Notes under the pieces: generated by a model
The model's input: the letters and a program-made list of their open reading frames with translations, nothing else
What the model was told of the DNA's origin: nothing
Databases searched by the model: none
Part shown: positions 35,906 through 59,199 of the stretch, in pieces
Layout: each line of letters starts with the position of its first letter
Numbering within the stretch: the stretch's first letter is position 1
Source: Rhodoferax sp.
GTDB lineage: Bacteria; Pseudomonadota; Gammaproteobacteria; Burkholderiales; Burkholderiaceae_C
Length of the DNA stretch: 64,000 nt
Direction of reading: 5' to 3'
Assembly: GCA_031291305.1 (NCBI GenBank)
Contig: JARLJH010000058.1
Coordinates: forward strand, 124,001 to 188,000
Translations under genes and position numbers: made by a program

Positions 35906-36796
35906 TCAATGTGAACGGATCATGGTGCCAAACGCCTGCTCGGTCAGAATTTCAAGCAACAACACGTGTGGCACACGCCCGTCGATGATGTGCACCGCGT
36001 TCACACCGCTCTTGGCAGCATCCAACGCACCGCTGATCTTGGGCAACATTCCGCCAGAAATCGTGCCATCGGTAAACAGTTCGTCAATGCGTCGGGCGGT
36101 CAAATCCGTCAGCAACTCGCCCGCCTTGTTAAGGACGCCGCTGATATTGGTCAGCATCAAGAGCTTTTCCGCTTTCAATACCGTAGCCAGCTTGGCTGCC
36201 ACCACATCGGCATTGATGTTGTAGCTCTCATTGTTTTCGCCAAAGCCAATCGGGCTGACAACGGGGATGAAAGCATCGTCCTGCAGCGCCTTGACCACGC
36301 TCGGATCGATGCTGACGATGTCGCCCACCTGCCCCACGTCGTGCTCTTTGCTGGGGTCGGCGCTGTCGAGCATTTTGAGTTTTTGCGCGCGAATCATGGC
36401 ACCGTCACGCCCGGTGAGGCCGACTGCCTTGCCACCGGCCTGGTTGATCAGGCCAACGATGTCCTGCTGCACCTCACCAGCCAGTACCCACTCAACCACT
36501 TCCATGGTCTCGGCATCGGTGACGCGCATGCCCTGGATGAATTCACCTTTTTTACCCAGGCGTTTAAGCAGGCCTTCGATTTGCGGTCCGCCGCCATGCA
36601 CCACCACCGGGTTGATGCCGACCAGTTTCAGCAGCACCACATCCTCGGCAAAGGCTTGCTGCAGCGCCGGGTCGGTCATGGCATTGCCGCCGTATTTGAT
36701 GACCATGGTCTTGCCGTGGTACTTGCGGATGTAGGGTAGCGCCTGCGCGAGGATTTGCGCCTGAGCGGGCGGAGTGATGGGGGTGACTTCGGTCAT
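35906..36796 (-). CDS. argB: Acetylglutamate kinase
   Basis: 296 residues. Phosphorylates N-acetylglutamate, the second step of arginine synthesis. Motifs are VIKYGGNAM (nucleotide-binding Lys/Gly, about residue 32), VVHGGGPQI (substrate), [12 protein letters not shown] and LTNISGVL. An N-terminal extension suits the arginine-sensitive hexameric class. The ATG at 36796 begins [11 protein letters not shown]; the frame is open 18 codons further without family support. It follows the glycan locus on the same strand. Confidence 0.95.
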
Positions 36797-36862
36797 GAGC
36801 GGCTCGATTTCCGTAGGTTGGACAGTGTTATGCGGCAAATTGTGCCGCATGTCAGCGCCAGC

Positions 36863-38740: not shown

Positions 38741-38911
38741 GGTGTGGCGCGAGCGAAAAAATTCATATTGAAGGCCAGTCAAGTCATTCGTAAAGAAGTC
38801 TTTCTCTTTTGGAAAGATCGGTACAACCTGTCACCACTGGCGATACTCTCAGAAAGATATTAACTTGATCCATACGTCAAACAATACTGGCTCTGATGAA
38901 TTTCAAGTGGG

Positions 38912-39898
38912 TCATTCCCCATGCTTGAGGTACTCGGAATGCCGAATCAGCCATTCTGCAAACCGTCCTAATCCCTGCTCAAAGCCCACTTTCGGCGACC
39001 AACCAAGTGAATTCCTTGCACGATCTATACTCAGCACGTTAACCGGGACATCGAATGTGCGACCAGGCAAATAATGGCGATTTGCGTGTCGCCCGGTCAC
39101 CTTTTCAATCGCTTCAAGCAGTTCGTTGAGACTTTGCCCGTGACCTGCCCCGATATTAAACACATGCTCACCAGTCTTTTTTTTAAGTGCAATCAACAGA
39201 GCAGCCACAACATCAGCGATATGGATGTAGTCACGCACGACAGAACCATCCCCCCAAATATCGACTGATTCGCCACGTAATACCTTGCCCAGAAATACTG
39301 CGACGGCCCCCTGGCTTGCATGTGTACGCTGCCGTTCACCAAAAGGGTTAGCCAAACGCAAAATTGTGTAGTCAAGACCATGCAACTGGTAAAAGAGCCC
39401 AAGATATTTTTCAATCGTCAACTTTGTAATGCCATATGAGCACACCGGGTCATTGGAATGCGACTCAAAAATCGGTATGTGTTTTGGCACGCCGTACACC
39501 GTTCCACCGGAGGATACAAAAATGATTTTCTTAAGCCGATGTTTAACTGCATGAGTAAGCAAATGAACACTACCAAGGACGTTGCTTTCAATATCAAATA
39601 CTGGGTCCAAATTCGAAGACTTCGGCAATGTTGTCGACACCAAGTGATAACAGAAATCGCATCCATTCAACGCTTCATCTACGTCGGTTTCGCTAGCAAA
39701 GTCTCCTTCGTGGAGTTCAAAATTGGGATTCGTTAAATGAGCATTACCTAACGGAACGACATGTGGTCGGTCGAAACAGCGCACAACATATCCTAGATCA
39801 AGCAGGGCATCAACCAAATGAGAACCAATGAATCCACGGCCGCCCAAAACCAAGCACCGCTCAGGCTTTCCAGCCACTTCAATTCCTGTATTACTCAA
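38912..39898 (-). CDS. NAD-dependent sugar epimerase/dehydratase, UDP-glucose 4-epimerase-like
   Basis: 328 residues. Extended SDR: LGGRGFIGSHLVDALLD (NAD), SSGGTVYG, then YGITKL for the YxxxK pair, and RLANPFGERQ. The reaction is probably 4-epimerisation of a UDP-hexose, but dehydratase activity is possible. The only start at this place is a TTG overlapping the stop of the preceding gene (TTGA), so translation is probably coupled. Confidence 0.82.
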   Translation of the reverse strand: MSNTGIEVAGKPERCLVLGGRGFIGSHLVDALLDLGYVVRCFDRPHVVPLGNAHLTNPNFELHEGDFASETDVDEALNGCDFCYHLVSTTLPKSSNLDPVFDIESNVLGSVHLLTHAVKHRLKKIIFVSSGGTVYGVPKHIPIFESHSNDPVCSYGITKLTIEKYLGLFYQLHGLDYTILRLANPFGERQRTHASQGAVAVFLGKVLRGESVDIWGDGSVVRDYIHIADVVAALLIALKKKTGEHVFNIGAGHGQSLNELLEAIEKVTGRHANRHYLPGRTFDVPVNVLSIDRARNSLGWSPKVGFEQGLGRFAEWLIRHSEYLKHGE

Positions 39899-42264
39899 CC
39901 AATTACTCCCGTGGTTTTCTCGTTGTTGCCTAGCCTATCATTGCTTGGGATACCCAAGACCTCGCAGTAGACTTCTTCGTAGTTATCCGTCATCACATCT
40001 GTATCAAATTTGGCAGCCGCCAGGGGGACACAATGCAACAGACGCTGATAAGCGAACGGATCATTGGCCAACGTCAAAATGACTTGCCCCACTGTCTCAA
40101 TCGGAATTGTCCAATCGTTCAAGGAGACCAACTCTCCGGCCAATCCCCCCTCTGAATCCAACATGCGGTGGATTTCTCCAATATTGCTGGCGAGCATAGG
40201 CTTACCAGAAAGCAAACAATCAATCAAGACCAGAGGCGCGCTCTCGCCCTTGAACCGAGATGGCAGGAATCCCATGTCGGATGCAGCGAAGTAATCCCTA
40301 ACATTTGATCTAAAACCGAGAAAATGCACAAATTCGTGAAGCGTTTGCGACTTCAATCTATCATATTCAGGTCCTTCACCGATCAGGAGCAGATGAACCT
40401 TGCGGCAAGAGCGAGCACTGGCCCACGCCACCGCATTTATGGCTTCCTCCCAGCCCTTGTCTGGGATTGCCCGAGCAACCAGGCAAAGTACAAAATCATC
40501 GGCACCTACATGAAGCTCAATACGCGATGTGGGCGTGATGCTTTTTAGCGGCAAGGCATTGTTGATAATGCAAAAATTCTTTTCTTGACGGAACTCTGAA
40601 GAAAAAACACCCAAGTTTTTTTCCGCTGTGTAAACGAAACGATCAATCCGGCGGCTCAGCAAGGGCAACAGCACCTGCAACTGAGTCGGCTGCATCATCT
40701 CGTACATGCCGTGCATGGTAACGATTTGCCGAATGTCCTGATGGTTTATCAGCAGTGTGGACAGCGACACATCAACCCAAGCGTGATGAGAATGGACTAA
40801 CTCAACGCCCATGTCGGTGAAGACAGAGCCCGCCAATTCGATGCGATCCAACTCAAGCAGGGGAATACAGCCTAACAGCATGCGCCGAACACCCGGCTCC
40901 GTAGCCTGCTCTTTGCAATTTAGGAGAGTGACGGCATACCCTCTATCCCGCAGAAGATTGGCAAGCATAATTGGGAACGTTTCGCCACCGCCAGCGGTGA
41001 GTGCGTAGACAGCCATAACAATGTTAGGCTTTCTGTCAATCGTTCGTTGCCATACTTTGTCAAGATCGTAGAAGCACCTGAATTCTGCGAGCTGTGATGG
41101 GCCTCTGTTGGTGCACCAGTGCAGATAAAGCTGTCGCTCTTGTTTTTCAAAATCTGCTCGATCCAATTGATAAAGCTTCGCCAAATACATGGCAACCACT
41201 TCATGTTCTCTGTAGTACAGATCTTCCTGTTGCGCGTTAACTGATGTATTTAGGGAATGCTGGCGGTAGTAATTCGTTGCATCTGGACTGTAGGCAACCA
41301 ATCCGCCGCGAATTATCGACAAGTAAAACACCCAATCGCCGCACATACGCAGGTTCAGCCATTGGGCATCATCAAGAAGACTTATTTTCCCAGGATGACG
41401 GAATACCGCACCGCTTACGTTGGGAACAATGTTTTTAACCGCCCAACCAGACTTCACCATCGCGTGCGCTGACTTGATAAACGGGTGGTCCCATATTCCA
41501 AGACCCAGCTCCGATAAATAGTCTTCCGAAGTCCACGCCTTCATCGGGGGGGTGCCGCGTACAAATTCAGTGCGCGCGAAGGCCAGCATGACGGCTGGGT
41601 TCTGGAAGCCGCGCACCAGTTCTTCTACCAGGTTTGTGGAGCAGTAATCATCGCTTTCCGCGATCCACACGAGCTCTCCGGTTGCAAGCTCCAACCCCTT
41701 TTTCCATTGATTGAACACCCCGCCCGAATTCGCTTCATTAAACCGGCAGAGGGTCTTGCCTGGGTAGCATTTGGCATAGTCGCCCAGAATCGCCACACTT
41801 TCGTCACTGGAACAGTCATCCAGCAAAATAACCTCAATGTTGCCGTAAGTCTGGCCATAGATCGAATCAAGCCGCTCCCGCAAGTACTTTGCGTGATTGA
41901 AATTAGGAACGATGATTGAAACTTTGGGTTGGAACCCAGGGGCCTGTGAAGGCACATCGCCATACAGTGCGGTTGATGAATTTATCCTGCCAGTGCTGAC
42001 GCCATGCATGAGAATGTTGGCACGACGCATCACACCACCAATGCCCTCGCGTTTCAACACGCCCAAAATACGGGGAAAGGCCAACCGCAACGAACCTTGA
42101 TAGAAAGAGACTGCGCGCGGTATCGCGCGACACAAGGCGCGGGTTGCTGCAAGTTGTCGACGTGCGTGCTGCAATGACGTAAACGCTATCTCCCACCTTC
42201 CGCGAATCCACCGTCCAACAAAACGTAGCGGCTTGGTCAGTTGCCGTGACCTTGAGGCAGTCAA
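39895..42264 (-). CDS. Two-domain glycosyltransferase, GT2 plus GT4
   Basis: 789 residues. Residues about 113-340 are a GT2 domain (VSIIVPNFNHAKYLRERLDS, ILLDDCSSDESV, AESDDYC as the DxD-like site). Residues about 430-770 are a GT4 domain, with DDFVLCLVARAIPDKGWEEA and LPSRFKGESAPLVLIDCLLS containing the E-x7-E-like motif. It probably adds sugars to the ABC-exported glycan. Its start, a TTG, overlaps the stop of the 1580-residue gene by four bases. The architecture and sequence resemble the C-terminal half of that gene, so the two look like duplicates. Confidence 0.85.
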   Translation of the reverse strand: MTASRSRQLTKPLRFVGRWIRGRWEIAFTSLQHARRQLAATRALCRAIPRAVSFYQGSLRLAFPRILGVLKREGIGGVMRRANILMHGVSTGRINSSTALYGDVPSQAPGFQPKVSIIVPNFNHAKYLRERLDSIYGQTYGNIEVILLDDCSSDESVAILGDYAKCYPGKTLCRFNEANSGGVFNQWKKGLELATGELVWIAESDDYCSTNLVEELVRGFQNPAVMLAFARTEFVRGTPPMKAWTSEDYLSELGLGIWDHPFIKSAHAMVKSGWAVKNIVPNVSGAVFRHPGKISLLDDAQWLNLRMCGDWVFYLSIIRGGLVAYSPDATNYYRQHSLNTSVNAQQEDLYYREHEVVAMYLAKLYQLDRADFEKQERQLYLHWCTNRGPSQLAEFRCFYDLDKVWQRTIDRKPNIVMAVYALTAGGGETFPIMLANLLRDRGYAVTLLNCKEQATEPGVRRMLLGCIPLLELDRIELAGSVFTDMGVELVHSHHAWVDVSLSTLLINHQDIRQIVTMHGMYEMMQPTQLQVLLPLLSRRIDRFVYTAEKNLGVFSSEFRQEKNFCIINNALPLKSITPTSRIELHVGADDFVLCLVARAIPDKGWEEAINAVAWASARSCRKVHLLLIGEGPEYDRLKSQTLHEFVHFLGFRSNVRDYFAASDMGFLPSRFKGESAPLVLIDCLLSGKPMLASNIGEIHRMLDSEGGLAGELVSLNDWTIPIETVGQVILTLANDPFAYQRLLHCVPLAAAKFDTDVMTDNYEEVYCEVLGIPSNDRLGNNEKTTGVIG

Positions 42265-45200
42265 TTACGGTACCCACTAGATTGAAGCCGATTTTCATCA
42301 CGGCTATTTTCAAAAAGACGAACATACTCAGATGCTATAACGTCAATTCGATAGCGATTGGCGACGTCTTGCACCAATGCCAGGGCGTTCATGTATTTTT
42401 GTCTATCAGTCGTGAAAGCCGCGACAACTTGCGCGGCTCCTTCAATCGGAACCTCCCAGTCCTCCAACTCGATCACTTCACCTGCAACGTCGTCCAATGT
42501 CGTTATCATGTTTCTGATATCCCCTACATCAGATGCAATGTAAGGTTTCCCAGCAAAGAGACAATCGACAATAGTCAGAGGAAAGCTTTCGGACTTGAAC
42601 TTGGTCAGCATGATCCCCATATCCGCCGCAGCATAGTGACCGACCGAGTTCTCGCTAAAGCCCGCCAAGTAGACGAAATCGGGCACACCGACCCGACAGT
42701 ACTCGTCGTAGACCGGTCCGTTACCTACCAGTACGAGGCGAATGTCTCGGCCCGATACGGCCCGCGCCCGCTCAACCACCTGGATCGTTTCAGCCCACCC
42801 CTTATCAGGTATGGCACGGCTGACGCAGCAAAGCGTGAAGGCATCTTCCGGGATGCCCATGTCTGCGCGCAGTATAGGAATGATGCGAGGAGGCTGCATT
42901 CCATTGGGCATCTTGACGAACCGGGACGAAGACTTGGCATAGAGGCCGACGTCGGAGAAGGGGACAAGATTCTTCTCTGCCGTATAGACCCAGGTGGTGA
43001 CGTTTTTATCTGCCTTGCGAAGTTGCTCATCAGTGACGCCGAAAGCGTCTCCGTGCTCAATCATTCCATGAAGGGATGCAATGTGCGCCTGTAGTTCATC
43101 AAAGACATCCGGAACTTGCAGCGGATACTTCTGAATGTGCCACTGATGGGTGTTCAACACTTCCACACCATAGTCGTGGATGATGGCCTTCACATCCTCA
43201 GCGCTGGACGACTCAATGACTGGTACGTCGTTGCGCAACATCCGACGAATTCCATCTTCATGGCACATCAAGCCCGCGTTCAACAATAACACAGAAAGAC
43301 CTTGACGCTTGAATTCGTTGACCAACCTGATGGGAAGAATTTCGGCTCCGCCGGGGAAGAAAGCCATTGTCGAGACCATGACGTTCGGCAGCCTACGTTC
43401 ACGGGCATCGAGAATGGCCTGGTAATCGTACCAAAGTGCGAATTCCTCATCGCTATGGCCAACCATCTTCTCGTAAAATGACTTGTAGCCTTTTTGACAT
43501 TGCTCTAGAGTTTTTAAAGGAACGTTATACAGAGCCGCGACAGTACGGCTTGCCATCCCTACTTCCTTGTAGAAAACGCGTTTTTTGTATGTGACCTCGG
43601 CTGTACTGCCTTCATATCTTCGGAAGAAGTTTGCGGTCCCCGTGTTGTAAGCGACCTTCCCGCCCCGAATGATATGAAGATAGAAAACCCAATCTCCCGC
43701 TACTTTCATCGACAGCCATGATTCGTCGTCCAGCAGGGGGATATTGATCGGGCGCTTGAAGAGAACACCGCTTGCGTTGGGGATCGTGTTCTTGATCCCC
43801 AACGCACTCTTCACCTCGTTGTGTGCAGTCTCCACATACGATCCATTCCATTTCTCCGCACAATCCAAATCGCTTATGTAGATCTTAAACTCGTCTCGCA
43901 AGGGGACTTCGTCACCGTCCACGAAAACGCATTTCGAGTATGCAAGGAGCACGGCCTCGTCGTCAAAACAACGAACAAGTACCTCAAGAAAACGCTCATC
44001 GCAGAAGTCATCACTTTCCGCAATCCAGACAAGATCGCCTGTCGCCGCTTTGATCCCCTTGGCCCATTGGCGAAAGGCGCTGCCAGAGTTCTTATCGTTG
44101 TACAGCTTGGTCGAAATCTCAGGGTGAGTCGTCGCGTATTGATCGAGAATAGACCGACTTTGGTCGGACGAACAATCATCCATCAGAATGACCTCAATGT
44201 TTTTGTACGTCTGCCCATAGATGCTATTTAAACGGCGACGCAGGAAACGCTCGTGGTTGTAGTTCGGCACAATCACCGAAACCTTGGGCGTGATCGCACC
44301 GGGGGCGATACCCAAGAGTGCGCGGGTTGTTTCGTTTACACGACAAAACCCCCCTTGCCGATCTGGCTCAAGAAAAAGGCCCTCATTCCAATCATTCCAC
44401 CCATTCACGAACACAAAACGTCGATCTTCTGAATGTGCGACTTTCGCGCCAGAGATTGCTGCATCGAGCCAGAGGCGGTAATCCTTTACGTTAAAGCTCG
44501 TGTACACGAGCGGGCGTCCCGGCTTTCTGGTTGTGTTATCCCGCCCAAGCGTGACACAGTGAAAGATTGGATGCGCGGAACCTTGCGCCTTGCGAACCTG
44601 AACAACGCCCTGGGAGGCAATCACCCCGTAGGGCACTACATCGATTCCATTCTTATCCTGTGGCAAAAAGTCACCGGTTTCGCCAGGTACCGGAGCATTG
44701 GGTAGATCAAGTACGGCATCGCACAGGTCCGCTAGGGGCACTCCCGAACTGTCCAGGCCAGTCGACGCCCAACGGCCGATCAAAAAGGGGCGGCTGACAC
44801 CGTGATCGGCAAGCAGACGCCTAAGTTGATGAAGAACGCTGGCAGCATGCTGCATTTCGCCAGGCATCGTGAAGAGAACGAGCGGCCGGTCTGCGATCCG
44901 GATATACCGCCGATCCGACACGGCGCGTACGATAGCAGCGACAAGAGGCGCGAGAACATATTCCGAAGTCAGCTCCGCCTGTACGCAGAAGCAGAAGTCG
45001 ATGTCGCCATGACCGAGGAAGATATCGACAGGCTGAGCGAGTCCGCCGCCAGCAGCCGCGCCAATATCGAGATCAAAGCAGAATCCGTAAAGGCCATGTC
45101 GCTTCGCCAACTCTGCCTGACGTTTGAGTACCTGCCAATCCGACGGGTCATAGAATCCGAAGTCTTCGTGCGGGAGAGGCTGCTGCGAGTGGCCTTTGAA

Positions 45201-47003
45201 CATGGAGCGCCCGCTGCGCAATGCTGCCCAGTCGGGCGACGAGTAGAACGCGAGCAGCTTGATGTCAGTATCCACGACACCAAACTGTATGTCATACTCA
45301 TGGCGCGTGGCCAAATCGGGGACGGCGTGCCTCATTTCCGTAGCGCCTGCGACAACGTAGTGCCAGAAAGGATTGATGCCCGCGTTGCGAATATCGCTGT
45401 AAGTTGCGAGATAGAAGTTGGTGTTGAAGTCGTCAGAGGGATTCCTTCCCTCTCGCCAACCAAACTCACAATAATGCCTGATCGCATCGCTCAATGGAGG
45501 CTGCAGATCCGGGTACATTGATCTATAGAACGACTCGTCGAAAAGCCCTGACTCCTTGATCGCCCCAACCTCCGCATCGATCGATGCATTTGAGTGCTTC
45601 TTGTGACCGACTGGGACGGAAGCTAACGTTAACTTAAGGGCATGCGCATGTGCTCCTATTGGGCGGCCTTCCAAACGACCGCATCGCAAATAGTGCAACA
45701 GTGGGTTGACTCGCGCTCTTGCGACATCTGGGTTGTCGGAAAGATACTGCGATGTACTGAACGCGGCAGAGGGGTCTCGGTGCTCCCGCCAACCGTGAAC
45801 CAGATAGTGCCTTGCTGGATCCACTCCAGCACTCTGTAAATCTTGGTTACCGGCCAGGTAGAACTCGGCATCAAAAAGAGAGCTATCGCGGATCTGACGT
45901 ATAGCGGCCCCGCGAAAAGCGTCGCGCCAAATCCGTAAGCGTTCGGGCGTTTTCCCCAAGAACGAAATGCAAGGTGAGTGAATTCCATGCCCGATAGCCA
46001 ATACGGCCTTGCGCAAAGGCGCCGTAACGCGCCAAGAGCGTGAGTGAAGAATCTGATTGAGTTGCTGTTGTACATTGCGAATTTCTGAGTCCTTCATGAT
46101 CAAGATACTCTCGGCCTCGCTTCTCTGATTCATGATCTGTCCGTCACGCTCAGCCACCGCCTGGTTGAGACTGGCGATTTGTCCGTCACGCGCCTCCACA
46201 GCAGCATAGAAGTTAGCCATCTGCCTTTCGCGATCGGCTACAACCGCAATCCAAGACTGAATAATCTCGGAGTCATTGATAGGTTGCTCAAGAACACCTG
46301 AAGAAAGCTTCGGAAGCTGCGCATCAGATGCCACTGCAATCCAATAGATAGGTTTTACAATTCCTGGCGCCGCTTTTATGACGTCATTTTCTTGCCAATA
46401 ACTTAAGGCAGGAGATGCTAAAGATTCTGCGAAAATTCCAGAGCCGTAAATGACACGCTGCCCGAAGTAGGCAGAATTTTTAAAATATTTCTCAAGGATC
46501 TGTTTGAATTCGTGCTCGTACAGCTCCTTAACATGGTATTGGTTGCTATAACCCGGTTCAATTGAGTAGTGATATTTGTCTGGGCTTGAAATCAGCAAAA
46601 AACCATCATGGCGCAAGACACGCTTGATCTCTTGCATCATTTCTTCATGTTGATCGTGATGCTCAATCGTCTCGAAGCTCACAACCACATCAATACTTGA
46701 ATCTGGCAAAGGAATATCAGAGCAACTTCCTACGAGGTATTCTAGATTCGTATTTTTGTAGCGGCTACGTGCGTGCTTTATAGCATCATCTGAAATATCA
46801 ACGCCGACTACCTTGCTGGCCTTTTTTGCCAACATCGCTGAGCCATATCCTTCACCACTGGCAATGTCTAATACATTTTTTCCATTCACAACTTCACAGG
46901 CTTGCAAATACCGATGGAAATGCTCAATTTCAATATTTCTCCCATGAAATCCTGGCAAAAACCGCTCCCCCGTCAGCTCTAAATTCTGATACTCGTCCAT
47001 CAT
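42261..47003 (-). CDS. 1580-residue fusion: SAM methyltransferase, coiled coil, WbsX domain, GT2 and GT4 glycosyltransferases
   Basis: Domains in order: class I methyltransferase, about 40-180 (VLDIASGEGYGSAM is motif I); helical heptad-like stretch about 250-320, ending in the linker ILHSRSWRVTAPLRK; two repeat units at about 373-447 and 483-557 (FYLAGNQDLQSAGVDPARHY; FYRSMYPDLQPPLSDAIRHY); WbsX-like domain 575-890 ending FVNGWNDWNEGLFLEPD; GT2 about 907-1110 (VSVIVPNYNHERFLRRRLNS; AESDDFC); GT4 about 1225-1560 (CVSRAIPDKGW; FKSESFPLTIVDCLFAGKP). It probably polymerises or finishes a glycan on the cytoplasmic membrane for the adjacent Wzm/Wzt exporter. The methyltransferase plus coiled coil recalls WbdD, the chain terminator of O9a-type systems, but no kinase domain is seen. 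The ATG at 47003 overlaps the wzt stop. Confidence 0.85.
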   Translation of the reverse strand: MMDEYQNLELTGERFLPGFHGRNIEIEHFHRYLQACEVVNGKNVLDIASGEGYGSAMLAKKASKVVGVDISDDAIKHARSRYKNTNLEYLVGSCSDIPLPDSSIDVVVSFETIEHHDQHEEMMQEIKRVLRHDGFLLISSPDKYHYSIEPGYSNQYHVKELYEHEFKQILEKYFKNSAYFGQRVIYGSGIFAESLASPALSYWQENDVIKAAPGIVKPIYWIAVASDAQLPKLSSGVLEQPINDSEIIQSWIAVVADRERQMANFYAAVEARDGQIASLNQAVAERDGQIMNQRSEAESILIMKDSEIRNVQQQLNQILHSRSWRVTAPLRKAVLAIGHGIHSPCISFLGKTPERLRIWRDAFRGAAIRQIRDSSLFDAEFYLAGNQDLQSAGVDPARHYLVHGWREHRDPSAAFSTSQYLSDNPDVARARVNPLLHYLRCGRLEGRPIGAHAHALKLTLASVPVGHKKHSNASIDAEVGAIKESGLFDESFYRSMYPDLQPPLSDAIRHYCEFGWREGRNPSDDFNTNFYLATYSDIRNAGINPFWHYVVAGATEMRHAVPDLATRHEYDIQFGVVDTDIKLLAFYSSPDWAALRSGRSMFKGHSQQPLPHEDFGFYDPSDWQVLKRQAELAKRHGLYGFCFDLDIGAAAGGGLAQPVDIFLGHGDIDFCFCVQAELTSEYVLAPLVAAIVRAVSDRRYIRIADRPLVLFTMPGEMQHAASVLHQLRRLLADHGVSRPFLIGRWASTGLDSSGVPLADLCDAVLDLPNAPVPGETGDFLPQDKNGIDVVPYGVIASQGVVQVRKAQGSAHPIFHCVTLGRDNTTRKPGRPLVYTSFNVKDYRLWLDAAISGAKVAHSEDRRFVFVNGWNDWNEGLFLEPDRQGGFCRVNETTRALLGIAPGAITPKVSVIVPNYNHERFLRRRLNSIYGQTYKNIEVILMDDCSSDQSRSILDQYATTHPEISTKLYNDKNSGSAFRQWAKGIKAATGDLVWIAESDDFCDERFLEVLVRCFDDEAVLLAYSKCVFVDGDEVPLRDEFKIYISDLDCAEKWNGSYVETAHNEVKSALGIKNTIPNASGVLFKRPINIPLLDDESWLSMKVAGDWVFYLHIIRGGKVAYNTGTANFFRRYEGSTAEVTYKKRVFYKEVGMASRTVAALYNVPLKTLEQCQKGYKSFYEKMVGHSDEEFALWYDYQAILDARERRLPNVMVSTMAFFPGGAEILPIRLVNEFKRQGLSVLLLNAGLMCHEDGIRRMLRNDVPVIESSSAEDVKAIIHDYGVEVLNTHQWHIQKYPLQVPDVFDELQAHIASLHGMIEHGDAFGVTDEQLRKADKNVTTWVYTAEKNLVPFSDVGLYAKSSSRFVKMPNGMQPPRIIPILRADMGIPEDAFTLCCVSRAIPDKGWAETIQVVERARAVSGRDIRLVLVGNGPVYDEYCRVGVPDFVYLAGFSENSVGHYAAADMGIMLTKFKSESFPLTIVDCLFAGKPYIASDVGDIRNMITTLDDVAGEVIELEDWEVPIEGAAQVVAAFTTDRQKYMNALALVQDVANRYRIDVIASEYVRLFENSRDENRLQSSGYRN

Positions 47004-48367
47004 GTCAAACCTTTTGTTACGCTCATTTTTATTGACTGCATTGGAATACCGACCAAACCGGTTGAAACACTACTGAATTCTGACTTAAACAAAACAGCAT
47101 CGTGTATCCAGTGATGCTGCTCGTGCACCTCTTGAGTACCGTTGGCAACAGCAGTAGAAATACTGTAATCACCCGACGGTAGTAGCGGCATATTGAAAGT
47201 GAAATCCACTTGAAGTTCACTTCCTTCAAGACAATGAGTAGCTTTTTCAAAGTAGGCTAGAAATGTGTTGTCACCAAACAAGGTCTGACCTAAACGATCT
47301 TTTACATAAAACCCAACAATTGGGGAGTGGATAGCTTTGGCCACAGTGACTTTAATTCGAAGTATGACTTTCTCGCCGCCCACAATCCAGGCCATCGGAT
47401 GTTCGTTTTCATTCAGAAGTCGAACATCATGAATTCTCGCTCCGCCTTTACCGAATGATGCAGCTTCCGGGTCAAACTTGAATATCTGTAAATCATTACG
47501 CAAATTACTGGTGTTAATGAACTCTAGTCTCTGATCTTTAAATGAAAGTGGATCGTCTGGCTTCTTGAATGTCCTGATCTTTGTTGTGCTGCTCTTACCT
47601 TGCTCAACTTCGTAAAACGCTTCAAGGTATAGCTCGCACACGTCCTTCGGCGTGCCTTCTTGGATTACCTGGCCTTTCTCAAGCCATACAGCGTAGCTGC
47701 ACAAGTTTTTTATACTGCTCGTGTCATGACTAACAAATAACACAGTTCCATTTCCCATAAAGTTGCGTAGAAAACGCATGCACTTCTGTGTAAAGAACGC
47801 ATCCCCTACCGCCAGTGCTTCATCGACTACGAGAATGTCCGCATCCACATGTGCGATAACGGCAAATGCCAAGCGCACCATCATGCCGCTTGAGTAGGTC
47901 TTTACCGGCTGTTCAATGAAGTCGCCGATGTCGGCGAAGGCAACGATATCGTTAAAGCGCGTATCGATTTCTTCATTACTCAAGCCCAACACTGACGCAT
48001 TCATGTATACGTTTTCCCGCCCGGTGAATTCAGGATTAAAACCAGAGCCGAGTTCCAGCAATGCAGCAATGCGGCCATTTGTTTGAATGCGGCCACTAGT
48101 GGGGTTGAGCGTGCCACAAATCATCTGCAGCAGAGTCGACTTGCCGCTTCCATTGCGTCCGATGATGCCAACGGTCTCACCTTTTTTGACTTGAAACGAA
48201 ATGTCTTTGATAGCCCAGAACTCGCGAAAATACTGCTTCGACTGATGCCCCACTAAGCGCTGCAGGCGTGGCAGCACAAACTGCTTGAGCCTGTCACGCG
48301 GGTTGGCATAGATTTCGTAGCGCTTGCTGAGCCCCTCAACACAGATGGCTATATCTTCAGAGGACAT
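47000..48367 (-). CDS. wzt: Polysaccharide ABC exporter ATPase with C-terminal extension (Wzt-like)
   Basis: 455 residues. Residues 1-250 are the ATPase: IIGRNGSGKSTLLQMI (Walker A), TYSSGMMVRLAFAV (signature region), DILVVDEALAVGD (Walker B) and VSHD. Residues about 280-455 are an extra domain of the Wzt_C type (GEKVILRIKVTV, IVGFYVKDRLGQTLFG, LLPSGDYSISTAV), which in O9a systems binds the finished, capped chain before export. Starts at the ATG at 48367, overlapping the permease gene by 11 bp. Confidence 0.93.
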   Translation of the reverse strand: MSSEDIAICVEGLSKRYEIYANPRDRLKQFVLPRLQRLVGHQSKQYFREFWAIKDISFQVKKGETVGIIGRNGSGKSTLLQMICGTLNPTSGRIQTNGRIAALLELGSGFNPEFTGRENVYMNASVLGLSNEEIDTRFNDIVAFADIGDFIEQPVKTYSSGMMVRLAFAVIAHVDADILVVDEALAVGDAFFTQKCMRFLRNFMGNGTVLFVSHDTSSIKNLCSYAVWLEKGQVIQEGTPKDVCELYLEAFYEVEQGKSSTTKIRTFKKPDDPLSFKDQRLEFINTSNLRNDLQIFKFDPEAASFGKGGARIHDVRLLNENEHPMAWIVGGEKVILRIKVTVAKAIHSPIVGFYVKDRLGQTLFGDNTFLAYFEKATHCLEGSELQVDFTFNMPLLPSGDYSISTAVANGTQEVHEQHHWIHDAVLFKSEFSSVSTGLVGIPMQSIKMSVTKGLT

Positions 48368-49211
48368 CGGCAAACCCCTTGCGCGTCTTTTGGAACCAAG
48401 CGTAACCAACCCAGGCGGTGGCTGTAGACACAAAGGTGTAGACAGCGAGTCCCAACCAGTTGGGCAGATGGCCCCAGACGAGCACGTCTCGCGCCTGCTC
48501 GATGATGAACGTCAGCGGGTTGGCCATGATGAATCCACGGAACCGCTCTGGCACGGCGGTTATTGGGTAAAACACGGGGGCCAGAAACATCAGTACAGTG
48601 GTGATGATGCCAATGGTTTGGCCAACATCTCTCAAAAACACGCCAAGTGAGGCCAACATCCACGCCAGACCTGTAGTCAGAACAACTAAAGGCAACAGCA
48701 CTAAGGGCGTGAAAATTACCGTCCAATTTAAGTACCCATTGAAGATAACAAAGGCCAAAAGCAGCACTCCAATGCTAATCAAGGCATGAAACAGTGCCGC
48801 CCCCATGGCAACGACAGGTAGTATTTCAATCGGGAAGACCACTTTTTTAACGTAATTGACATTGCTCAGAATCAGACCTGGCGCTCGATTAAGCACCTCG
48901 TTAAACAAGTTCAACACGATCATGCCCACGAACAGCACTACGGCAAACTGAGTCTTGCTACCGTCGGCGCCAGCACCACCCCAACGCGACTTGAAAATTT
49001 CAGAGAACACAAAGGTGTACACCACCAGCATGAAAACCGGGTTAAAAAAAGACCAGGCCAATCCAAAGGCCGACCCCTTGTAGCGGCCCGCGACTTCACG
49101 CTTGATCATCTGCACGATGAGCTGGCGGTTGCGCCAGAGGCTTTTCCCTAGCGCCACCAAAGATGTGGGGGGCGCAGCATGAGGATTAATAGCCACAGTT
49201 GGCATTCCCAT
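48357..49211 (-). CDS. wzm: Polysaccharide ABC exporter permease (Wzm-like)
   Basis: About 284 residues, ABC-2 family, with about six membrane helices. Family features are LIVQMIKREVAGRYKGSAFG near the start, LSNVNYVKKVVFPIEILPVV, and APVFYPITAVPERF. It forms the export channel with Wzt. Starts at ATG 49211 or 49205; the first leaves a four-base gap after the upstream glycosyltransferase stop. Confidence 0.92.
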   Translation of the reverse strand: MGMPTVAINPHAAPPTSLVALGKSLWRNRQLIVQMIKREVAGRYKGSAFGLAWSFFNPVFMLVVYTFVFSEIFKSRWGGAGADGSKTQFAVVLFVGMIVLNLFNEVLNRAPGLILSNVNYVKKVVFPIEILPVVAMGAALFHALISIGVLLLAFVIFNGYLNWTVIFTPLVLLPLVVLTTGLAWMLASLGVFLRDVGQTIGIITTVLMFLAPVFYPITAVPERFRGFIMANPLTFIIEQARDVLVWGHLPNWLGLAVYTFVSTATAWVGYAWFQKTRKGFADVL

Positions 49212-49215
49212 AAAT

Positions 49216-50187
49216 TTAAATTTTTCCAAAAAAAGCGGCGATAAACAAAGCAACATTACTTGACAAAGTCTGCCGTTTAATGCCAGCGCGTTTGAATTGC
49301 GCAAGCCGGGGAATAAGGGGTTGACTTCGCCCAGAGGCAAATAGATTCAGAGCTTCTCGATTTTTCGGCGTCAAAAGGTGCGTCAACGCCTGCAGAGCGT
49401 CAATATTACAGTCGTTCCAGCGCTTGAACTGGCCTTGTTTGACCATACGCATTCGCATCATACGGGCGTGCCAGCTGTCGTTCATACCTACAAGGTTAGC
49501 AACGTGCTGGCGATAGCGCACAGTGGGGTAAGGGTCGTAATAAACCAGCCCACCACATCCAGTGACTGCCAGATATGCCCACCAATCGTGAGAAACGACA
49601 GTGACTTTCTCCCCCACATGCTTCAGTAGCTGACGCGCAGCTTCATTGAAAACCATCGTATTCCCGCCGCCAATGTTTTGCATCAATGCATTGGAAAAGC
49701 TTGGGGGCTTGGTGAACAGCGGCGACATGCCGACACTTTCATTGCGGGTGTTAATCAAGCGAGTTCGGGAGCAATAGAGCCCGGGCACATTTGCAGGCAC
49801 ACTTTTTAACCACGCCACAGCGCGCTGCAATTTATCTGCCTCCCACACGTCATCCTGATCTGAGTATGCGTAAAAGTCGGCCAGAATATTGGCATTGCAG
49901 GTGAGCGACAAAAAGTTGGCAACAAACCCCTCGGCTGGCCCGGCGTGAATGGATAAGCGACGAGCACCCCACTTGGACTGGTAAGCTTGCAGGATTTGGT
50001 GCGTGCCATCTTTCGAGCCATCGTCTGAGGCCCAGACTTCCCAGTCCGGGTACGTTTGCATCGCAAAAGATTCAAGTTGGTCCGCCAGAAACTGCTGACC
50101 ATCATAGGTACAGAGAAGGATAGCTACCTTGCCGCCGCCACTTGTTTGGCAACGTATATTGCTTTCAACCTCGACATCTTGCTTCAC
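49216..50187 (-). CDS. GT2 family glycosyltransferase (rhamnosyltransferase-like)
   Basis: 323 residues. Opens with VAILLCTYDGQQFLADQLES, followed by ASDDGSKDGT and AYSDQDDVWEADKL, the metal-binding acidic residues of GT2. This pattern resembles WbbL/RfbF-type rhamnosyltransferases, but donor and acceptor are unknown. The start is a GTG at 50187, with no ATG in suitable place. It heads the left half of the locus, followed closely by wzm. Confidence 0.85.
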   Translation of the reverse strand: MKQDVEVESNIRCQTSGGGKVAILLCTYDGQQFLADQLESFAMQTYPDWEVWASDDGSKDGTHQILQAYQSKWGARRLSIHAGPAEGFVANFLSLTCNANILADFYAYSDQDDVWEADKLQRAVAWLKSVPANVPGLYCSRTRLINTRNESVGMSPLFTKPPSFSNALMQNIGGGNTMVFNEAARQLLKHVGEKVTVVSHDWWAYLAVTGCGGLVYYDPYPTVRYRQHVANLVGMNDSWHARMMRMRMVKQGQFKRWNDCNIDALQALTHLLTPKNREALNLFASGRSQPLIPRLAQFKRAGIKRQTLSSNVALFIAAFFGKI

Positions 50188-53806: not shown

Positions 53807-54657
53807 CACGTGCGGGTCCAATACGCAGGTTGACCCATCAAATACCGCCCCATATCGAGCAATTTTCTGGTTTTTTTTTCGCCCAACAAGTGCCACAAGA
53901 CCAATCGAATATAAACGCGCACAACGGCAAGCAGCCAAATGCGGCCTGGCCACTGCAAGCCGTTCTTTACTTGTGCAGATCGAGCTTCATACAAGAGAGC
54001 CAAAGAGCTTTTTGGACTACTACTTAGTCCCCCAACACGCATACCAGAAACTACGATGTCCTCCAAAAACACCGCGTCAGAAAGTAATAACTCGCGCAAG
54101 AGCAGCTCGTAGTCACCACAAATTTTGAACTTTTCATCGAAGTAACCTTGCAATTCAAAAAGGCTGCGTCGATGCATGACTCCTTGGTGTGGAATACTCA
54201 TTGCTTGCATGAAGCGCGTTTTGACCCCGCTCCAAGGCTGACCAACTTTATGTAGAGGAACTCCATTCTGATCAAGCAGCATGATTTGCCCGTAAGCCAC
54301 ACGAATGTTCACCGGAATCAGTGCCAATGTCTCAGCCATGCGCGCTACCACCTGCGCCTCCCACAAATAATCATCAGCCCCCAGAAAACAAATCCAATCC
54401 CCTGTAGCCCGAGCCAGCGCCTTGTTCCACGCGTTATAGATACCGCGGTCAGGTTCTGAGACCCAATACGCAATACTTTGCACATTCTTCTGAATGATGT
54501 CGATCGTGCCGTCGGTTGACCCCCCATCAATCACAATCAACTCGATGCTCGGGTATGTCTGAGCGCGAACACTGTCCAGGCATTGCTGCAATGTCGTCTT
54601 GCAGTTATAGACAGCAACTACGATGCTAATTAAGGGCGAAGTGTTTATTGATGTCAT
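53806..54657 (-). CDS. GT2 family glycosyltransferase
   Basis: 283 residues. ISIVVAVYNCKTTLQQCLDS, IVIDGGSTDGTIDII, and then CFLGADDYLWE give the GT2 core; EPDRGIYNAWNKAL recalls the WcaA/WcaE-like branch of colanic-acid-type transferases. It overlaps the Gmd-like gene by four bases and the next GT2 by one. Confidence 0.85.
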   Translation of the reverse strand: MTSINTSPLISIVVAVYNCKTTLQQCLDSVRAQTYPSIELIVIDGGSTDGTIDIIQKNVQSIAYWVSEPDRGIYNAWNKALARATGDWICFLGADDYLWEAQVVARMAETLALIPVNIRVAYGQIMLLDQNGVPLHKVGQPWSGVKTRFMQAMSIPHQGVMHRRSLFELQGYFDEKFKICGDYELLLRELLLSDAVFLEDIVVSGMRVGGLSSSPKSSLALLYEARSAQVKNGLQWPGRIWLLAVVRVYIRLVLWHLLGEKKTRKLLDMGRYLMGQPAYWTRT

Positions 54658-55607
54658 TGGGCACGCACCTCATCAACCAGCCTGCTTGCCAACTCCGGCA
54701 TAGTTATATGCGCATGCCAGCCCAAGCAGGTTTTGGCCAAGCTGGCATCGCCCTGGCTCCAGCCAATGTCCGATGGACGAAAAAATTGAGCATCGCTGAC
54801 AACATGTTCGTGCCAGTCCAGTCCAACGCGCTCAAACACACTCGCCACGAATGTTTCAAGCGACACAGACACACCGGTGGCAATGACGAAGTCGGCAGGG
54901 GTATCTTGTTGCAACATGCGCCACATGGCATCAACGTACTCTGGTGCCCAACCCCAGTCACGGCAAATTGCCAACTGTCCGAGCATCAGTTTTTCATCGG
55001 ATCCGCCAGCAATGCGCAAAGCGCTGTCGATGATCTTGCGCGTCACAAACCGGGCCGGACGCAACGGCGATTCATGGTTAAAAAGCAGACCGCTGCATGC
55101 ATACAAACCATAGGCTTCGCGGTAGTTGGCCACCATCCAGTGGGCGGATGCTTTGGCAACCGCGTAAGGACTGCGTGGATGAAAAGGCGTGCGCTCGCTG
55201 GCCGGTATAGGCCCAACATCGCCAAAACACTCACTGGAACTGGCATGGTAAAGTTTGATCCTGCCGCCCAAAAAGCGGATCGCTTCAAGCATATTGAGCG
55301 CACCCACCGTGATGCTTTCCAACGTCTCCACAGGCTGCTCAAAAGACAACCCAACCGAACTTTGCCCGGCCAAAAAATACACCTCATCCGGCTCGCAGCG
55401 AGTTAACACCGACAACACGCTGCGGAAATCAGTAGGTGCCATGGAGCACAGGCTGATCTGCCCGACCAATCCCAGGCGTTTCAAATTCCGAAACTCGGTC
55501 ATTTGGGCATCCCTAGAGCTACCCCAAACTTTATAGCCCTTGCACAACAGCAATTGCGCCAGATAGGCGCCATCCTGCCCACCCACACCACAAATCAATG
55601 CTTTCAT
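54654..55607 (-). CDS. GDP-mannose 4,6-dehydratase-like protein, second copy
   Basis: 317 residues. ALICGVGGQDGAYLAQLLL matches the Gmd opening. SSSECFG is where Gmd has STSELYG, and SPYAVAKASAHWM supplies the YxxxK pair. It is about 50 residues shorter than the true Gmd at 58099-59199. It may be a second dehydratase or a reductase acting on the same 4-keto sugar. The ATG at 55607 overlaps the previous stop. Confidence 0.78.
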   Translation of the reverse strand: MKALICGVGGQDGAYLAQLLLCKGYKVWGSSRDAQMTEFRNLKRLGLVGQISLCSMAPTDFRSVLSVLTRCEPDEVYFLAGQSSVGLSFEQPVETLESITVGALNMLEAIRFLGGRIKLYHASSSECFGDVGPIPASERTPFHPRSPYAVAKASAHWMVANYREAYGLYACSGLLFNHESPLRPARFVTRKIIDSALRIAGGSDEKLMLGQLAICRDWGWAPEYVDAMWRMLQQDTPADFVIATGVSVSLETFVASVFERVGLDWHEHVVSDAQFFRPSDIGWSQGDASLAKTCLGWHAHITMPELASRLVDEVRAQ

Positions 55608-56704
55608 GCCAATACCTGTTGATATACCGACAAGGTTTGCTGAGCACATGCAGCCCAGGAAAATTGCTTGACCTGCTCGTAGCCCCGCGCAACCAAGGTC
55701 TGGCGCGTTGCCGCGTCGCCCAGCGCAGCGCTGATGGCTTGCGCTATTTGATCGGGCAACAAGGGATCAAACATCAGCGCAGCATTACCAACCACTTCTG
55801 GAATCGAACTAGTATTGCTACAGACCACCGGACACCCGAAGCTCATGGCCTCCAGCGGAGGAATACCAAACCCCTCGTAAAGCGACGGGTAGATAAATAC
55901 TGTGGCTTTGCGATAGAGCCCCGCCAACACATCATCCCCCCCGGGAATCTGAAGAAGTTGCCCAGTCGGTATGCCAAGCCGCCGCGCTAGCTCCAATTCG
56001 CTGCTGGTCAATGCCCCACCACCAAAGGCAACAAGCTGGTAGTCTTTCATCAGGCTCGGGCTGCTCGCATAGGCTTTTAGTAAGCTTGCGAAATTCTTGT
56101 AGCCAGCGCGGATGCCGACATAAAGCAAAAAGGGGCGGGTGATGGGCGACTCAACTTGGTCGCGGGTTTGGCTCAAGGAAAAACCGAGATGGATGACAGA
56201 TGTTTTTTCGGGGTCTACACCATGCAGGTTGATCAAGTCTTGCCGTGTGTGCTCTGAGATGCAGATGACATGGTCAGCGCGCCGCACCGCAGCCACTTTG
56301 TCTCTTGCGACCGTGTCGTGGGTAGCAAAATCGTTGGTGAATCGCTCGTGGATCATGTCGTACACGGTGAGTACCACCTTGCAACCTTTTGGTGCCATTG
56401 TTTGCGCGGCATAGTAAGTCTCATGCACCAGGTCTGGGCGATACAGGTTTGCGAGTGGTTTGGCGAGAACCCGGTTGACGGCGCGATAAATGAGGTGTGA
56501 TCCTTTAAAAATTGGCGCTCTAGTGCCCACAACATTGACATCCGACAAACTGGAAGAGAGGTACGCATTGATGTACGTTGGACTAATCACACTAACCTGT
56601 ACTTCTTTGACCAGGGAGAGCTGGTTCACCAGTTCAGCAAAATAGCGAGAAATTCCACCATACTTCTGCAATGAAAATATTTGATGGTCAAAAATAACGC
56701 GCAT
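55604..56704 (-). CDS. GT4 family glycosyltransferase (mannosyltransferase-like)
   Basis: 366 residues. FDHQIFSLQKYGGISRYFAE opens the first Rossmann domain. The second domain has FLLYVGIRAGYKNFASLLKA and FIYPSLYEGFGIPPLEAMSF, the E-x7-E signature of GT4. GDP-mannose-using relatives are frequent, which fits the gmd gene in the same run, but the donor is not proven. Confidence 0.88.
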   Translation of the reverse strand: MRVIFDHQIFSLQKYGGISRYFAELVNQLSLVKEVQVSVISPTYINAYLSSSLSDVNVVGTRAPIFKGSHLIYRAVNRVLAKPLANLYRPDLVHETYYAAQTMAPKGCKVVLTVYDMIHERFTNDFATHDTVARDKVAAVRRADHVICISEHTRQDLINLHGVDPEKTSVIHLGFSLSQTRDQVESPITRPFLLYVGIRAGYKNFASLLKAYASSPSLMKDYQLVAFGGGALTSSELELARRLGIPTGQLLQIPGGDDVLAGLYRKATVFIYPSLYEGFGIPPLEAMSFGCPVVCSNTSSIPEVVGNAALMFDPLLPDQIAQAISAALGDAATRQTLVARGYEQVKQFSWAACAQQTLSVYQQVLA

Positions 56705-58098: not shown

Positions 58099-59199
58099 TT
58101 ACTCCACGCTTACGGAGATTTTGTAACCATTGGCCCTTAGCAAGGCGTGTTGTTTGGCTTGCGCCAGATCAACAGCAATCATCTCAGTCACCATCTCATC
58201 AAGGGTGATCTCCGGCACCCACCCTAGCTTCTGTTTGGCTTTGCTCGGGTCGCCCAACAGGGTTTCCACTTCCGTCGGTCGGTAGTAGCGCGGGTCAATC
58301 CTGACAATGGCCCGATCCTGCCAGTAGGCCACCTCGTTGACACCTGCACCTTCCCAGCGCAAAGGCATATCTAAGGCTGCAGCCGCCTTGTTGATGAACT
58401 CGCGCACGCTGTACTGCACCCCGGTAGCAATGACAAAGTCTTCCGGTTTGTCCTGCTGCAGCATCAGCCATTGCATGCGCACATAGTCTTTGGCATGGCC
58501 CCAGTCGCGCAGGGCGTCGATATTGCCCATGTACAGGCAGTCTTCCAGGCCCTGGTTGATGTTGGCCAGGCCTCGGGTGATCTTGCGGGTGACAAAGGTT
58601 TCACCGCGGCGTGGGCTCTCGTGGTTGAACAGGATGCCGTTGCAGGCATACATGCCGTAGGCTTCGCGGTAGTTCACCGTGATCCAGTAGGCATACAGCT
58701 TGGCCACGGCGTAGGGGCTGCGTGGGTAGAAGGGGGTGGTTTCCTTTTGCGGGATTTCCTGCACCAGACCATAGAGTTCGGAGGTAGAGGCCTGGTAAAA
58801 GCGGGTTTTCTTCTCCAGCCCCAGGATGCGGATGGCCTCCAGAAGGCGCAGGGTGCCCATGCCGTCCACGTCAGCGGTGTATTCGGGGGACTCGAAGGAG
58901 ACGGCCACATGGCTTTGCGCACCCAGGTTGTAGATTTCGTCTGGCTGGGTTTGCTGGATGATGCGCGTCAGGTTGCTGGTGTCGGTCAGGTCACCGTAGT
59001 GCAGCTTGAAATTGGCGTGTTCAATGTGCGGGTCCTGGTAGATGTGGTCAACACGCTGGGTGTTGAACAAGCTGGCGCGGCGTTTGATGCCGTGCACGAT
59101 GTAGCCTTTTTCCAGCAGAAATTCAGCCAGGTAGCTGCCATCTTGGCCAGTGATGCCAGTGATGAGGGCAACTTTGCGGGGAGCGGTGGTTTCGGTCAT
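58099..59199 (-). CDS. gmd: GDP-mannose 4,6-dehydratase
   Basis: 366 residues. Converts GDP-mannose to GDP-4-keto-6-deoxy-mannose. Motifs: [49 protein letters not shown] and [13 protein letters not shown] with catalytic Thr/Ser-Glu and Tyr-Lys. It begins the overlapping gene run. Its usual partner fcl is truncated just upstream. Confidence 0.95.

Follow-up and report, generated by a model that had tools for sequence, protein, structure and literature searches.

Proteins that join chain-ending and chain-building enzymes on one polypeptide have been described in several glycan systems. In Klebsiella pneumoniae O7, ORF6 carries a methyltransferase-kinase, a coiled coil and two glycosyltransferase (GT) modules on one chain, and WbbB of K. 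pneumoniae O12 unites a polymerase, a terminator and a coiled-coil ruler in one protein (PMC11231755). In Geobacillus stearothermophilus, the gene of WsaE, a methyltransferase with two rhamnosyltransferase domains, overlaps wzt (PMC2943079). Here, a 64,000-nucleotide stretch of Rhodoferax sp. (GCA_031291305.1, contig JARLJH010000058.1, positions 124,001 to 188,000; hereafter the window, in whose coordinates positions are given) was analysed, which encodes on its minus strand a 1580-residue protein with methyltransferase, WbsX-like, GT2 and GT4 parts. This protein is quite probably a single-chain polymerase-terminator of a glycan exported by an ATP-binding cassette (ABC) transporter, its cap reader and cap writer having entered the cluster as one cassette.

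The fused gene (42261..47003, minus strand), delimited by open reading frame (ORF) listing, translation and Pfam, begins with ATG and contains zero internal stops over 1580 codons, and the same interval read on the plus strand in frame 1 contains many. These limits are exactly those given in a first-pass annotation of the window. The position proposed there, directly after an exporter ATPase with a C-terminal extension, is also correct: in transcription order the fused gene follows wzt (47000..48367, minus strand; likely ATG start at 48367, with the mechanical ORF reaching 48433), whose product bears a Wzt_C domain, and the two genes share the four bases ATGA. With its 69 contigs the genome assembly is a draft, which would suit a frame produced from separate genes by faulty assembly or annotation; given 1580 codons with no stop, a fused homologue, open for 1787 aa, in a complete plasmid record and other methyltransferase fusions in many assemblies, the probability of such an artefact is negligible.

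Pfam matches, counted above the curated cut-offs (regions reported at an expectation value (E) of 0.01), placed Methyltransf_11 at residues 45-138 (83 bits), WbsX at residues 688-885 as the better of two stretches (PF14307; 131 bits, cut-off 25), Glycos_transf_2 at residues 909-1034 (89 bits) and Glyco_trans_1_4 at residues 1390-1515 (47 bits). The methyltransferase (MT) domain, the proposed cap writer, occupies residues 1-240 (46284..47003, minus strand, as for all domains of this protein). Its fold, for which the first-pass annotation had proposed a structure prediction, is confident in an AlphaFold model of residues 1-600 (ten-residue mean predicted local distance difference test (pLDDT) scores of 81-98 over residues 21-240), and all 50 PDB matches shown by a fold search are methyltransferases or putative methyltransferases. 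No kinase domain was found by Pfam after the MT domain, which in the model ends near residue 240, a helix beginning at 246. This helix, the proposed coiled-coil ruler (residues 246-319; 46047..46268), is a single unbroken stretch of 74 residues between the MT and the GT part (ten-residue mean pLDDT 82-97). Its hydrophobic periodicity peaks at 3.54 residues, and the power at 3.5 was matched by 112 of 5000 shuffles. Of the coiled coil claimed at first pass, the helix is thus present in the model and the heptad periodicity is modest, which makes the assignment suggestive rather than strong; lying between the capping and polymerising modules, the modelled helix could serve as a ruler. The motif SRSWRVTAPLR and the helix following it (residues 320-338; 45990..46046), recognised in a motif survey, are proposed to form the membrane-side end of this ruler. 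SWR-type motifs occur within 420 aa past the MT in 58 of 118 MT ORFs (114 distinct MT domains).

Beyond this motif, a repeat region (residues 364-567; 45303..45914), defined by sequence and by homologous stretches in a related plasmid cluster, is helical in the model and matches no Pfam domain at E 0.01. Repeats of this kind, with FD..FY and HY...G..EGR-like motifs, recur beside WbsX and GT modules in many related proteins. The GT2 module (residues 903-1140; 43584..44297; motifs DDCSSD, AESDD and GDW) and the GT4 module (residues 1200-1580; 42264..43406; EX7D motif) were assigned by Pfam, motifs, model and fold search. Their motifs are kept in the fused protein, in the companion GT2-GT4 protein encoded by the next gene and in both plasmid counterparts. 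Most of the two modules is confident in an AlphaFold model of residues 560-1580, and GT-A and GT-B enzymes are among the 50 matches listed by a fold search of the second half.

The WbsX-like domain (residues 570-892; 44328..45296) between these parts appears degenerate. It was compared with 25 full-length WbsX domains from fetched loci, leaving aside the duplicate of the window locus and seven domains truncated where a contig or locus stops, for three conserved motifs of our own choice, GFTEW, WANENW and NAWNEW. All three are kept in 24 of the 25 domains, the exception (L116) having the first only by the patterns used. In both the fused protein and its plasmid relative, GFTEW and WANENW are absent and NDW replaces NEW. 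Because motifs conserved in the family are lost, the domain is probably, as judged from its sequence, a non-working enzyme retained as a dead structural remnant. An alternative in which the altered motifs still support glycosyltransferase activity, making every enzyme listed at first pass a working one, is improbable: the 131-bit match and a retained NGWNDW stretch favour activity, and against it stand the loss of motifs that nearly all compared domains keep, an identity to the plasmid relative of 31.9%, the lowest of the polymerase-side modules, and a model without confidence in this part (ten-residue mean pLDDT 24-58). Consequently, the five domains that the first-pass annotation placed on one chain are all found, but five working enzymes are not; beside the proposed coil and the repeats, the protein probably contains three enzyme modules (methyltransferase, GT2 and GT4) and one remnant. 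A search of open-access literature by family name and accession, judged by titles and abstracts, found nothing on the function of the WbsX family, the papers retrieved under the family name dealing mostly with filarial antigens.

From its sequence, the protein would belong with the single-chain polymerase-terminators, having terminator-type and polymerase-type GT modules fused and Wzm and Wzt_C as neighbours. It resembles O7 ORF6 in the N-terminal methyltransferase, the putative coiled coil, the two C-terminal GT modules and the wzm/wzt cluster. O7 ORF6 differs in having a kinase, a domain like a carbohydrate-binding module and a methylphosphate end; both of its GT modules are called GT2, and a WbsX-like domain goes unmentioned in the consulted parts of that paper (PMC11231755). 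WsaE shares with the window protein a methyltransferase, there making a 2-O-methyl cap, two GT domains and overlapping genes (wzm, wzt and wsaE); it serves, however, a Gram-positive surface-layer (S-layer) glycan, and neither a coiled-coil ruler nor a WbsX-like part is mentioned in the consulted parts of the source (PMC2943079). WbbB likewise fuses polymerase and terminator and has a coiled-coil ruler, but its cap is a beta-linked 3-deoxy-D-manno-octulosonic acid (beta-Kdo) added by a glycosyltransferase, with no methyl group (PMC11231755). In Escherichia coli O9a, WbdD also has an N-terminal methyltransferase, which is distanced by a coiled coil (PMC5082667, PMC3482155). Unlike the window protein, WbdD has a kinase, and the polymerase WbdA is a separate protein. 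The hallmark of the WbdD family, a kinase between methyltransferase and coil, is missing from the window protein, and the sequence similarity of the two methyltransferases is marginal (4azw, E 0.0038). The fusion of capping and polymerising parts suspected at first pass is therefore real, both lying on one chain beside a Wzt with a C-terminal domain like those of methyl-cap readers. It is a kind of fusion already described, of which the window protein is a variant; the notion that the layout had never been described is ruled out by O7 ORF6, O12 WbbB and WsaE (PMC11231755, PMC2943079).

Relatives of the MT end were surveyed in the best 80 named loci of at least 582 confirmed. Forty-four are longer than 700 aa, 29 are shorter than 450 aa and 7 fall between. 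Among the 44 long relatives, 38 also match GT2, GT4, WbsX or repeat profiles, and 27 are encoded on the strand of a wzt gene and no more than 900 bp downstream of it. The search for the same fusion beside Wzm/Wzt in other genomes, recommended at first pass, thus found similar fusions, but the exact order MT-repeat-WbsX-GT2-GT4 in none of these best 80. In an Aminobacter plasmid protein (P0003), the order is MT-WbsX-GT4-GT2 and the WbsX motifs are intact. Four loci entered twice from different collections (L016/L157, L024/L116, L025/L109 and L049/L143) and are contained in the counts of 60 Wzts, given below, and 118 MT ORFs.

The C-terminal carbohydrate-binding domain of Wzt (47048..47461, minus strand; Wzt_C, 130 bits) is the proposed methyl-cap reader. 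Its closest PDB relatives are 8dky and 6o14 (E 1.5e-11), then 8dku and 7k2t, all four matching with E values from about 1e-11 to 1e-10; the O9a reader 2r5o matches at E 6e-4. Of these, 6o14 and 7k2t are Aquifex aeolicus structures, in whose reader pocket the 3-O-methyl group of the cap lies between Leu300, Thr346, Ala348 and Trp362; Trp362 stacks on the methyl group, and W362L essentially abolishes binding (PMC9445017). The window reader has Tyr, Ser, Ala and Trp at these positions. It thus keeps the Ala and Trp of the methyl pocket and differs at Leu300 (Tyr), Thr346 (Ser) and His350 (Ala). With this similarity and the pocket Trp, the window Wzt can be classed as a putative methyl-cap reader. 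Of 71 Wzts with a usable reader, 60 (58 distinct), including that of the window, have an MT gene in the same orientation at most 900 bp away; the pocket Trp is present in 47 of these (46 of 58 distinct), Ala348 in 53 (52 of 58 distinct) and Arg at the Trp site in none. Of the remaining 11, two belong to sulfotransferase clusters and have Arg; the other nine, either unclassed or more distant, have none. The MT-adjacent readers of cyanobacterial loci L103, L110, L111 and L124 are 22-30% identical to that of the window, as unlike it as sulfotransferase-type readers, and keep Trp; they may read yet another end.

In the mechanism that we propose, the GT2 and GT4 modules, together with the companion GT2-GT4 protein, would extend a lipid-linked chain at the membrane, and the helix, some 11 nm long (74 residues x 0.15 nm), would keep the N-terminal methyltransferase at a distance; the corresponding distance in WbdD is quoted as about 20 nm (PMC5082667). 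Once a chain is long enough to reach the methyltransferase, its tip would be methylated and growth would stop; a phosphate step is presumably absent, given the lack of a kinase match. Recognition of the methylated tip would then fall to the reader domain of the neighbouring Wzt, and export of the chain would follow. The reader and methyltransferase domains, contiguous on the DNA across the gene junction, are proposed to have entered the cluster together, as one cassette.

This last step is suggested by nucleotide composition. The wzm, wzt, fused and companion genes (3151 codons) were scanned for change points in GC content at third codon positions (GC3) on a 10-codon grid, with 100 shuffles of codon order. 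The best low-GC3 segment (46290..47548, minus strand) begins at wzt codon 274, within the linker that joins ATPase and reader, and closes at codon 238 of the fused gene, where the MT domain ends and borders the coil. It therefore holds the Wzt reader and the methyltransferase domain, the proposed exchange cassette. GC3 is 0.398 in the segment versus 0.584 outside, with a log-likelihood ratio of 25.6 compared with at most 9.6 in the shuffles. The simplest reading is that reader and writer arrived jointly as about 1.3 kb in a cluster with a plasmid-related polymerase. Across 24 MT-fusion clusters with an adjacent wzt, the GC3 of reader and writer shifts together (Spearman 0.60; 0.48 without the window and L066), which speaks for joint arrival. 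This shift and a drop of at least 0.02 in the same parts in 14 of the clusters also fit a codon or sequence constraint on the reader and MT domains with no imported cassette. Such a constraint, however, should act more evenly than is observed, as the drop exceeds 0.1 in only two clusters, the window and L066, and two others show a rise of more than 0.06; it is hence an unlikely, though not a minor, competitor of joint arrival. The Methylococcales locus L066 (6937-13425) has a low-GC3 reader-writer pair like that of the window, yet wzt and the fused gene are separated there by a gap of 676 bp.

A further line of evidence comes from a related cluster with a different writer, an exchange that is not visible from the window alone. 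Plasmid pKTa005_1 (NZ_CP147085; locus L150, 7741-13104), from a bacterium isolated from river water and labelled E. coli, bears an entire glycan cluster in the order GT2-wzm-wzt-[1787 aa]-[741 aa GT2-GT4]-epimerase-cysD-cysN-permease-cysC. Over the stretch between the coil and the C-terminus, the 1787-aa protein can be aligned with that of the window. At its N-terminus it has a Sulfotransfer_2 domain (82 bits, against a cut-off of 22) and, after this, a coil built of 14-residue repeats, and the window methyltransferase and plasmid sulfotransferase give no alignment signal (Z -0.7). The products of cysD, cysN and cysC would supply 3'-phosphoadenosine-5'-phosphosulfate (PAPS). Besides the WbsX-like domain, identities between window and plasmid are 66.8% for GT2, 68.7% for GT4 and 54.8 and 60.7% for the repeats of the fused protein, and 55.4% for the companion, 59.2% for Wzm, 48.7% for the upstream GT2 protein and 59.5% for the epimerase. 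In Wzt, the ATPase domain is 67.4% identical and the reader 25.5%. With the writer end of the plasmid protein set at residue 256 and its SWR-type motif at residue 528, about 272 residues separate the two, compared with 87 in the window; the longer coil would predict longer chains there.

These comparisons also bear on whether the methyltransferase might modify residues along the growing chain, with length and export set by something else. Some S-layer glycans carry O-methyl groups, and methylation by WsaE in vitro is independent of chain length (PMC2943079), both consistent with internal decoration. The neighbouring Wzt reader, however, is of the methyl-cap kind, and in the cluster with the alignable polymerase another kind of transferase takes the place of the methyltransferase at the far end of the coil, the reader differing as well. 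Internal decoration is thus well short of likely, though slightly less remote than an active WbsX-like domain, and capping at the tip is preferred.

A second sulfotransferase family is fused to GT modules in L159 and L160 (27.1 and 29.7 bits, at or just over the Pfam cut-off of 27), and L179, L180, L181 and L187 were matched to the L159 domain by blastp. Seven sulfotransferase loci have a usable Wzt. Its gene lies upstream in the same orientation in L150, L159, L179 and L186; in L180, L181 and L184 it has the opposite orientation, at a distance of about 0.1 to 3 kb. The sulfotransferase proteins of L184 and L186 have no GT match. No Wzt match was found within the flanks examined for L160, L187 and L182, and the profile matches of L156 are two 579-581-aa ABC proteins with no Wzm beside them. 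All seven readers have Arg at the site of the methyl-stacking Trp in two alignments. An eighth Arg reader, adjacent to a sulfotransferase (L196), was also found; its Arg, like that in the other newly found loci, is not independent evidence, since the search profile contained Arg. In a tree built by a quick method from 39 rows (31 of the 60 MT-type Wzts, about every second one kept, and 8 sulfotransferase-type), the sulfotransferase-type Wzts form one clade in both the reader (support 90, with long branches flagged) and the ATPase domain (97). Because they form one clade, the Arg-type readers represent, on this tree, a single evolutionary event.

Among 240 genomes, the profile of the seven Arg readers matched 16 (E 1e-9) and the L159 sulfotransferase 15 (E 1e-20), with 13 shared (hypergeometric 6e-17). 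When the six seed genomes are set aside, the counts fall to 10 and 9 of 234, with 7 shared (6e-10). Counted by genome, the linkage of Arg-type Wzts to sulfotransferases is thus strong, although neither comparison includes a methyl-type reader control. The profile-positive genomes that lack the sulfotransferase (G1002, G1099 and G1121) are among the weakest matches, and the match in G1099 and a second match in G752 are Trp-type readers. A 25,156-aa frame in G1027 was discarded as an artefact of masked bases. The glycans of sulfotransferase clusters may carry sulfate caps. No description of a sulfate cap read by Wzt was found among the open-access papers listed, judged from titles and the beginnings of abstracts; sulfotransferases are mentioned in PMC4483657, PMC11766843 and PMC3526765.

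Several observations weigh against a capping polymerase with a jointly imported reader and writer, or against its extension to sulfate. The low-GC3 segment is a compositional signal, which by itself does not establish transfer; the mild drop in 14 clusters is of the kind that constraint would give, and the same scan of the plasmid cluster found no low-GC3 segment (log-likelihood ratio 6.1 versus 11.7). The methyltransferase could decorate internal residues, and the heptad periodicity of the helix is modest. The pocket is not universal, as 12 of the 58 distinct MT-adjacent Wzts lack the Trp. The plasmid cluster differs from the window in the whole wzt lineage, reader and ATPase domain alike. 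Moreover, when 32 MT-type Wzts whose ATPase identity is comparable are considered, 3, from cyanobacteria, have readers that diverge as much (25-30%) and keep the Trp. Both points weaken the idea that the exchange between window and plasmid was confined to the reader domain of Wzt. Finally, the linkage of Arg readers to sulfotransferases is weakened by their positions: an Arg reader and a sulfotransferase are adjacent in only one of seven non-seed genomes (L196), the pair in G1130 being about 20 kb apart, and the flanks of the Arg-type loci L192-L195, L197 and L198 (up to 9 kb on each side, shorter at contig ends) contain no sulfotransferase-profile match.

In the surrounding cluster, the stop of the fused gene is overlapped by the companion gene (39895..42264, minus strand), assigned by Pfam, an own-genome search and GT motifs. 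Its 789-aa GT2-GT4 product is a paralogue of the C-terminal half of the fused protein (39% identity to residues 888-1563) and the single other long match to it in the genome. The exporter membrane subunit is encoded by wzm (48357..49340, minus strand, ORF as listed; ABC2_membrane by Pfam). GC content is 45-55% in the cluster (38-58 kb) versus 54-63% in the remaining window, and no full-length match to the fused protein at E 1e-20 was found in other genomes of the genus (89 searched, own included); the glycan cluster therefore looks acquired. For sugar supply, the window contains gmd, encoding GDP-mannose 4,6-dehydratase (58099..59199, minus strand; TIGR01472, 587 bits, cut-off 415), which fits D-rhamnose, as in Aquifex, and a gmd-like gene for a GDP-sugar enzyme (54654..55649, minus strand; 318 bits, under the gmd cut-off of 415), possibly with the role of Rmd. 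The glycan sugar may thus be D-rhamnose or D-mannose. A 459-aa ORF inside the cluster (56715-58094) has zero Pfam and zero NCBIfam matches at E 1e-5. At the downstream end, a CoA_binding_3 and Polysacc_synt_2 gene of the nucleotide-sugar 4,6-dehydratase type (36863-38782) adjoins argB (35906-36850).

Across the related loci, the DNA encoding the coil often consists of tandem repeats that keep the frame, their period being one or more heptads (21 bp or multiples of it; L066, L093, L124, L132, L138, L150 and others). Heptad-period coil repeats occur in 17 of the 118 MT ORFs. Downstream of the MT, the period is divisible by 21 bp in 23 of the 27 arrays, but such periods are common in other parts of the loci as well (28 of 79 arrays, the L150 coil array being counted here). 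No heptad-unit tandem array is listed in the coil of the window itself. Ruler length could change in such loci by repeat slippage.

Taken together, the low-GC3 segment of reader and writer, the sulfotransferase in place of the methyltransferase in a syntenic cluster and the Arg for Trp in sulfotransferase-type readers look new here. They point, tentatively and at somewhat less than an even chance, to ABC-exported glycans with interchangeable cap cassettes, in which writer and reader lie side by side and one recombination would swap both, one of the caps being sulfate, which a sulfotransferase from one or the other of two families would attach at the coil's end and a Wzt with Arg for Trp would recognise. 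The question addressed is how the writer and the reader of an export mark stay matched while the polymer changes, and the contiguous reader-writer segment, together with the cluster carrying a sulfotransferase for the methyltransferase, offers a concrete and testable answer. Should the Arg-for-Trp reader bind sulfate, another class of ends on exported glycans would become predictable from sequence.

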